Origin: Luteibacter jiangsuensis
GTDB lineage: Bacteria > Pseudomonadota > Gammaproteobacteria > Xanthomonadales > Rhodanobacteraceae
NCBI RefSeq assembly: GCF_011742555.1
Contig: NZ_JAAQQR010000009.1
Coordinates: 1-64,000 of the forward strand
Direction of reading: 5' to 3'
Length of the DNA: 64,000 bases
The notes under the pieces were generated by a model. The model was not told the DNA's origin, ran no database searches, and saw only the letters and a list, made by a program, of their open reading frames with translations. A program made the position numbers and the translations under genes. Positions 1 to 11,520 of the stretch are shown here, one piece after another (within the stretch, counting starts at the first letter, position 1; every line of letters starts with the position of its first letter).

Positions 1-119
1 AATACAACGAGGAGCGGCCGAAGAAGGCGTTGGGCGGACTGACTCCCGCCGCCTACGCCGAGCAGCTAAAGTAACCCCCCGGACTCTAATTCGCTCCGCT
101 ACTGAAAGCGGGGGGACGT
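1..119 (+). mobile_element. Right end of an IS3-family insertion sequence (partial)
   Basis: The window opens inside the last codons of an IS3-family transposase. About 45 bases follow its stop codon, with an AAAGCGGGGGGACGTC stretch (about 106-121) that resembles the GC-rich terminal inverted repeat of such elements. The left end lies outside the window, so the exact terminus and any target duplication cannot be fixed. It fits an accessory strip next to tRNA-Thr. Confidence 0.55.
3..74 (+). CDS. IS3-family transposase, C-terminal end only
   Basis: The frame starting at base 3 reads YNEERPKKALGG followed by LTPAAYAEQLK and a TAA stop at 72-74. The N-E-x-R-P-x-x-A-L-G-G-x-T-P signature is the usual C-terminal end of the DDE integrase domain in IS3-family OrfB transposases. 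Only 23 residues are visible because the gene enters from beyond the left edge, so it cannot be told whether it is intact or which IS3 subgroup it belongs to. Confidence 0.7.
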   Translation, partial: YNEERPKKALGGLTPAAYAEQLK

Positions 120-9388: not shown

Positions 9389-9528
9389 CCGGTAGAAAGA
9401 GCCTGCCGCAAACCCCTAGTTTGACAGCCGTGACGGGCCGGAGGACAGTCTGTCATCTGGCGATTTGCGGGCCACGGCAGCCCGGGCAAGCCACGCTGCA
9501 GCAGCCCGCCGCGAGGGCAAGACGCTCC

Positions 9529-9611
9529 TGTGGAAGCCGCTTCAGCGGCGATGGGTGCTCGCGGGAAGCATGCCCGCTGCCGCGGGATCGCCGGCATAGC
9601 CGGCTCCCACA
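9529..9611. repeat. REP-like inverted repeat, copy 2
   Basis: It opens TGTGGAAGCCGCTTCAGCGG and closes CCGGCATAGCCGGCTCCCAC. It occupies the divergent gap between murJ and rpsT, upstream of the rpsT promoter. One base of the left outer arm (GGAAGCC instead of GGGAGCC) differs from the other copies. The rest of 9389-9702 shows only the rpsT promoter. Confidence 0.85.
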
Positions 9612-9632
9612 GGTGAAGCGGGCCCTAAGCTA

Positions 9633-9661
9633 TTGACGCGGCCCGCCTTTGGCCCCAAAAT
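9633..9661 (+). promoter_or_regulatory. Sigma-70 type promoter for rpsT
   Basis: TTGACG (9633-9638) and CAAAAT (9656-9661) are spaced by 17 bases. The -35 matches five of six consensus bases and the -10 four of six. It lies about 40 bases before the TTG start of rpsT, which is reasonable for a ribosomal protein transcript. Confidence 0.5.
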
Positions 9662-9702
9662 GGGCGTCTTTTTTAAAACCAACCGAACTCTGGAGCTTTA
9701 CC

Positions 9703-9966
9703 TTGGCCAACATCAAGTCCGCGAAGAAGCGTGCGCGTCAGTCGGAGCAGCGCCGTCTGCGCAACGTCAGCGCGCGTTCCATGGTGCGTTCCGCACTGAA
9801 GAAGGTCGTCAAGGCGATCGACGCCAAGGATAAGGCCGGCGCCGTCAGCGCCTACGCCGTCGCCGTGCCGGTGATGGACCGTTACGCTGCCCGTGGCCTC
9901 ATCCACAAGAACAAGGCCGCTCGTCACAAGAGCCGCCTGAACGCGAAGATCCGCGACCTGGCGTAA
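9703..9966 (+). CDS. rpsT: 30S ribosomal protein S20
   Basis: Primary 16S rRNA-binding protein of the small subunit. The 87-residue product begins (M)[17 protein letters not shown], the standard S20 N-terminus, and is strongly basic. The start is a TTG at 9703 with GGAG at 9692-9695, seven bases upstream; an ATG at 9649 would add 18 unrelated residues. A TTG start is known for rpsT in other bacteria, where it takes part in autogenous control. Four terminators in tandem follow the gene. Confidence 0.95.
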
Positions 9967-9990
9967 GCCTGCGCGACATCGCTGTTCACG

Positions 9991-10135
9991 AAAAAGCCGG
10001 CGAAAGCCGGCTTTTTTTGTATCCATAAAAGCAGGCCGGCCCGCGCCGGCTTTTTTTGTATCTGTAAAAGCAGGCCGGCTAGCGTCGGCTTTTTTTGTAT
10101 CTGTAAAAGCAGGCCGGCTCGCGTCGGCTTTTTTT
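9991..10135 (+). terminator. Four tandem rho-independent terminators after rpsT
   Basis: The first hairpin is GCCGGC-GAAA-GCCGGC followed by seven T (ending 10018). Three more near-identical units follow, each with a GCCGGC/GCCGGC or GCCGGC/GTCGGC stem and a seven-T tract ending at 10057, 10096 and 10135. The period is exactly 39 bases, and each unit includes a GTATC(T/C)(G/A)TAAAAGCAG linker. It looks like an expanded tandem repeat built on a working terminator. Confidence 0.85.
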
Positions 10136-10162
10136 GCCCTCGATTCGGGGGTTGCTTCTCTT

Positions 10163-10244
10163 TGTGGGAGCCGCTTCAGCGGCGATCCCGCGGCAGCGGG
10201 CCAAGATGCGGCAAGCACCCATCGCCGCTGAAGCGGCTCCCACA
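10163..10244. repeat. REP-like inverted repeat, copy 3 (symmetric form)
   Basis: Both arms use the same half-unit: TGTGGGAGCCGCTTCAGCGG at the left and its exact complement CCGCTGAAGCGGCTCCCACA at the right. The other copies pair a CTTCAG half with a CGGCATAGCCG half. It sits 16 bases past the obgE stop codon, just after the rpsT terminator array. Confidence 0.85.
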
Positions 10245-10259
10245 CAAAGCCAGCAATTC

Positions 10260-11517
<1,258 letters not shown>

Positions 11518-11520
11518 ACA

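Follow-up and report, generated by a model that had tools for sequence, protein, structure and literature searches.

In the window, the whole 64 kb stretch of DNA that was analysed, four predicted intrinsic terminators lie in series directly behind rpsT, and the array that they form is probably a fast-turning tandem repeat, driven by slippage, of the rpsT terminator together with its 3' flank, in which the extra copies would be largely redundant. The array and its neighbours are laid out as follows.

9703..9966, plus strand: rpsT (ribosomal protein S20), with a TTG start (from sequence, open reading frame and S20 relatives)
9991..10018, plus strand: terminator unit 1, A5 + GCCGGC-GAAA-GCCGGC + T7, whose near symmetry might let it stop transcripts arriving from the opposite side too (read directly and folded)
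10019..10057, plus strand: unit 2, linker GTATCCATAAAAGCAG + GCCGGC-CCGC-GCCGGC + T7 (read, terminator scan and fold)
10058..10096, plus strand: unit 3, linker GTATCTGTAAAAGCAG + GCCGGC-TAGC-GTCGGC + T7 (read, terminator scan and fold)
10097..10135, plus strand: unit 4, linker GTATCTGTAAAAGCAG + GCCGGC-TCGC-GTCGGC + T7 (read, terminator scan and fold)
10160..10249, strand unassigned: long REP-like inverted repeat in the interval between array and obgE, outside the array (read from sequence)
10260..11327, minus strand: obgE, the convergent neighbour (from sequence and open reading frame)

The reading frame at 10260..11327 we take to be obgE from general familiarity with the protein, as did the preliminary description, and the class name REP-like for the repeat at 10160..10249 is likewise our assumption. 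The TTG start of rpsT is shared with rpsT of E. coli.

Unit 1 begins 24 bases beyond the rpsT stop codon, and T7 tracts close the four units at 10012-10018, 10051-10057, 10090-10096 and 10129-10135. In sequence and predicted fold, every unit has the anatomy of an intrinsic (Rho-independent) terminator, a GC-rich hairpin followed by a T-tract 3' of a gene, and the arrangement, with at least two terminators in series on one strand, is that of a tandem terminator; its head-to-tail, near-identical units are also those of a minisatellite or VNTR. The preliminary description of four terminators 3' of rpsT with a period of 39 and T-tracts ending at 10018, 10057, 10096 and 10135 agrees with the sequence, with the folds and with Tandem Repeats Finder (TRF), which returned an array at 10006-10136 (period 39, 3.4 copies, 93% matches) whose score of 213 exceeded that of every other row among the 57 for the 64 kb. 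Two finer points need adjustment. The GCCGGC hairpin ascribed to each unit is exact in units 1 and 2, whereas the 3' arm of units 3 and 4 reads GTCGGC, with one G-U pair. Similarly, near-identity with a repeated linker holds for units 2-4, each of which consists of 39 bases (16 bases of linker that end in AAAAGCAG, then a 6-4-6 hairpin and T7), but not for unit 1, which has an A-tract in place of AAAAGCAG at the base of its stem and is a different repeat.

When folded singly, units 1-4 all formed hairpins (-19.6, -17.0, -13.5 and -15.9 kcal/mol), and 0, 4, 4 and 0 of 200 shuffles, respectively, folded equally well. In a fold of the whole 177-base strand the arms pair across different units (-79.8 kcal/mol, with none of 200 shuffles as low), and, given this cross-unit pairing, the behaviour modelled for single units is not certain to hold within a long transcript. 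A terminator scan found units 2-4 on the plus strand and missed unit 1, returning six sites against a shuffle mean of 1.9. Beyond the array itself, REP-like inverted repeats of the GTGGGAGCCGCTTCAGCGGCGAT type lie to either side of rpsT (10160-10249 and about 9527-9614), and similar palindromes were seen by eye between the rpsT terminator and obgE in several relatives. Short AGTGAAC / CTTCACGGTTCACA repeats appear as TRF rows at 11332-11519, in the spacer upstream of obgE.

Within the genus, for which we had 23 genomes including that of the window, three have an array: the window's genome and G015 with four units each, and G021 with three. The other 20 carry one GCCGGC hairpin and T-tract at the same place, although in one of them (G011) just 78 bases were available from the rpsT stop codon onward. 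Two of the array-free genomes have a further hairpin, a second, unlike terminator in G019 and a weak one in G009, and our hairpin finder scores such non-repeat hairpins as well. The three genomes with arrays group together in a murJ tree (FastTree, local support 92). In G021, GTTGCCC comes directly after the last unit, and in several array-free relatives it comes after the single terminator.

In the wider family, rpsT was located in 189 of 197 genomes, and the region downstream was read in 134 of them (the 23 of the genus, 11 further loci and 100 fetched regions), three of these loci being short (L106, L246, L260). By the TRF threshold, 17 of these 134 genomes, in 7 of the 22 genera sampled, have a tandem array at the rpsT terminator, a count that refers not to a random draw but to the higher-placed loci of a list sorted by S20 similarity, from which some late ones were omitted, and that includes one genome, G107, added for its already-known array (16 of 133 without it). 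The arrays are spread over genera g1 (3/23), g13 (7/17), g17 (2/16), g19 (2/6), g15 (1/1), g21 (1/1) and g14 (1/2), with periods of 36, 38, 39, 40, 41, 57 and 59 and at most five units (in G107). Since the threshold misses two-unit repeats, such as those of L196, L229 and L246, 17 is an undercount of repeats. One TRF row, that of L205 (240-334), was dropped as lying off the terminator, and G072, an array by TRF, has units with just three Ts. Among 80 named loci (two of them short), TRF found arrays in a Rhodanobacter, Dyella silvae and Dyella solisilvae, the latter two apparently being present in the family set also. Because arrays occupy the same place in other genomes, two of which are single-contig (G127 and G042), an assembly artefact is unlikely. 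In L224 and L251 (g17), the 57-59-base units have an apparent second hairpin inside the linker.

The unit number differs between species, each represented by one genome, and the presence of an array on the murJ tree requires at least 13 changes of state over 130 rows, 17 of them with an array; this is a single-gene FastTree tree that omits four loci without murJ, takes its states from the TRF threshold and does not distinguish gains from losses. Units resemble those of their own array more closely than others: identity is 0.905 for the 32 pairs within arrays and 0.678 for the 671 pairs between arrays (0.77 within the same genus), and for 37 of 38 units the nearest unit lies in its own array. 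The genomes G000 and G015 have identical rpsT genes and murJ genes that match at 95.1% of DNA positions, and their units are only 71% identical (about 29% different). This pattern looks like concerted, fast turnover. Linkers of a similar kind, which have an A-rich stretch and in which GCRG precedes the stem, are found in g1, g13, g15 and g21 and suggest one old origin for these arrays, whereas the linkers of g17 and g14 are unlike the others and those arrays probably have separate origins. In g13, several TRF-negative genomes have two hairpins or decayed copies, so that arrays there have probably grown and been lost repeatedly from an old state of two units.

Parsing by a strict unit layout gave no unit in L253 and one in L134, so that 15 arrays with between three and five units remained. 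The stem of unit 1 was perfect at all 16 parsed loci. In comparisons that treat related units as independent, and that are therefore hints only, the 38 extra units (22 perfect, 7 with G-U pairs and 9 with a mismatch) differed from unit 1 (Fisher p 0.045), and the differences between neighbouring extra units fell on 13 of 280 sites in stems and on 50 of 526 sites in loops and linkers (p 0.013). Extra units may thus be relaxed relative to unit 1 and perhaps not wholly free: their hairpins may be under some selection, because stems differ less than loops and linkers do between neighbours. One compensatory pair was found, in unit 4 of G055, and decayed further copies lie 3' of the arrays in G117, G127 and G036. 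Mutant hairpins occur in duplicate in G015 (units 3 and 4), G021 (units 2 and 3) and G084 (units 2 and 3), which shows that duplication there followed mutation. By eye, a linker-like sequence starts after the last T-tract in 7 of the 15 arrays (G179, G117, G127, G036, G086, G119 and, in part, G015), so that the piece copied in these was hairpin, T-tract and 3' flank; in the remaining 8 of 15, the window's own among them, no linker copy follows the last unit. By an approximate terminator score, unit 1 is the highest or tied in 13 of 16 loci (L253 omitted), with a later unit scoring higher in G127, G119 and G107. Compensation for a weak first terminator is consequently not supported.

Whether such repeats are peculiar to rpsT was judged from letter patterns. 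The pattern TTTTTT-20..50-CTTTTTT matched the array and two other places in the window's genome, neither of them like a hairpin repeat, and the array alone in G015 and G055; G163 and G107 gave extra matches, which on inspection do not look like copies of a single repeated terminator, and a reversed control pattern gave 8 matches in G163, 4 in G107, 1 in G055 and none in G000 and G015. The string GCCGGCTTTTT occurs at just four other spots in the window's genome, none of them tandem. Two copies of GGCTTTTT at a distance of 18-46 bases were found in 5 of the 23 genus genomes, and outside rpsT this pair occurred in the genus at a single place in G002 and another in G022, neither of which looks like a repeat of one unit. 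Across the 197 family genomes 59 matched the same search, with chains of at least three copies at rpsT in 11 genomes and at other sites in G028 (coding) and G046 (which looks coding), as well as shorter-period triples in G059 and G070. A triple pattern matched 14 of 299 genomes of the order, 4 of them being rpsT arrays of the window's family, and a similar one matched 42 of 369 genomes of the class, a draw with few members of that family; outside rpsT, the matches in order and class look by eye mostly like lysine-rich, coding-type repeats, G220 and G440 being possible exceptions. The patterns of these searches from genus to class fix GGC or GC before the Ts and so miss arrays with other stems. 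As far as letter patterns show, the array is thus not one of many tandem terminators strewn through its genome. In G220, of the same order and another family, locus L292 carries at about 1414-1770 a tandem palindromic unit, GCGGACC-CAC-GGTCCGC followed by AGGCTTTTT, which adjoins a response-regulator-like reading frame and is possibly a second kind of terminator-like repeat. The G440 match (G440:C1:9048-9239) is an AT-rich repeat of 30 bases, with GCTTTTTTT, in a genome of just 400 kb.

The suggestion in the preliminary description that the array is a slippage expansion finds support in the lineage-specific periods, the homogeneity within arrays, the doubled mutant units and the differences in copy number between close species. 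We envisage that the intrinsic terminator of rpsT and its 3' flank would be copied through slippage of replication, or through a switch of template, at the stable hairpin, which is the simplest cause that we can infer, and that fast turnover would then keep the copies alike within one species. Judging from its anatomy, unit 1 is predicted to terminate well and would end almost all rpsT transcripts, so that the extra units could act solely on read-through; units 2-4 would catch just the small remainder, under weak selection, and an extra copy, costing next to nothing, would persist.

Slippage by itself gives no reason why rpsT should be hit repeatedly, and the recurrence of arrays at this one gene is one point in favour of a selected fail-safe, in which read-through from the strong rpsT promoter, even if small, is costly and extra terminators are favoured whatever lies downstream. 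The gene is strongly expressed, the extra units retain their T-tracts and mostly their stems (29 of 38 without a mismatch), and stems change less than loops and linkers. Two tandem hairpins are also reported to terminate better than single ones at gyrA of M. smegmatis (PMC8355165). Nevertheless, 117 of the 134 relatives fall below the array threshold, the extra units decay, and a first unit that is strongest or tied by the approximate score at most loci is not being rescued; we regard such a fail-safe as possible but rather unlikely. A related and doubtful proposal is that the rpsT terminator is a family-wide amplification hotspot whose copy number, varied by slippage from one to five, is selected, through the retention or loss of units, to tune read-through or the mRNA 3' end, as a fast-evolving dial on a ribosomal-protein gene.

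Insulation of the convergent obgE from rpsT transcription, offered in the preliminary description as a reason for the array, fares worse. It is true that obgE converges about 125 bases past the window's array, that it does so within 420 nt in all three array genomes of the genus, and that the scan placed two weak terminator-like sites at unit 2 on the minus strand. However, obgE is also convergent in 15 of the 19 array-free genus genomes for which 300 nt or more could be read, and across the family it falls inside the 420 nt inspected at 4 of the 17 loci with an array (one of these 17 has only 321 nt), compared with 40 of the 114 without. Approached from obgE, moreover, units 2-4 offer just 4 T behind a GC spacer, and we consider insulation very improbable. 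Hardly credible is an origin as a dispersed mobile or REP-type element, or as a protein-binding or structured regulatory RNA, even though the units are palindromic, intergenic and adjacent to a REP-like repeat. REP and BIME elements have many dispersed copies, whereas at E <= 0.01 the window's genome has no other match to units 2-4; apart from the array, which also matches its own reverse, there are just three short matches, at other loci, and these cover unit 1 alone. No Rfam family reached its gathering score in 9400-10400, where all 24 matches up to E 1 fell below it. A BLAST search against plasmid records matched one Aeromonas record, in the rpsT part of the query only. A coding repeat was also considered, 39 being a multiple of 3 and an antisense reading frame spanning the array, but it is unlikely because the periods in relatives run from 36 to 59 and include 38, 40, 41 and 59.

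Tandem intrinsic terminators are a known kind, exemplified by rrnB T1-T2, and bacterial minisatellites or VNTR loci are known as tandem units that are homogeneous within an array and variable in number. The rpsT arrays resemble rrnB T1-T2 and the double hairpin reported for M. smegmatis gyrA (PMC8355165) in placing terminator hairpins serially behind a gene, but they differ from both in being made of near-identical head-to-tail units, three to five in the 15 arrays, whose copy number and period change between close species. They share with the hairpin clusters of Gupta and Pal 2021 (PMC8355165), defined as groups of predicted hairpins less than 15 nt apart, the presence of several hairpins close behind a stop codon; those clusters do not appear to be portrayed as repeats of one unit. 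Like minisatellites, the arrays have tandem units (here of 36-59 bases) that are homogeneous within an array and vary in number between species; unlike them, every unit is a predicted terminator and one site has been struck repeatedly across a family. Among the titles and opening lines of abstracts in the matches listed, mostly from openly available literature, we found no account of a terminator-made tandem repeat recurring at one gene across a family.

If the arrays are indeed neutral products of slippage, they are a modest curiosity. They suggest that tandem repeats with rapid turnover can be seeded by a terminator hairpin, and the family offers, as a natural series, related species with one to five terminators behind the same gene, in which the cost or gain of redundant termination would be measurable.
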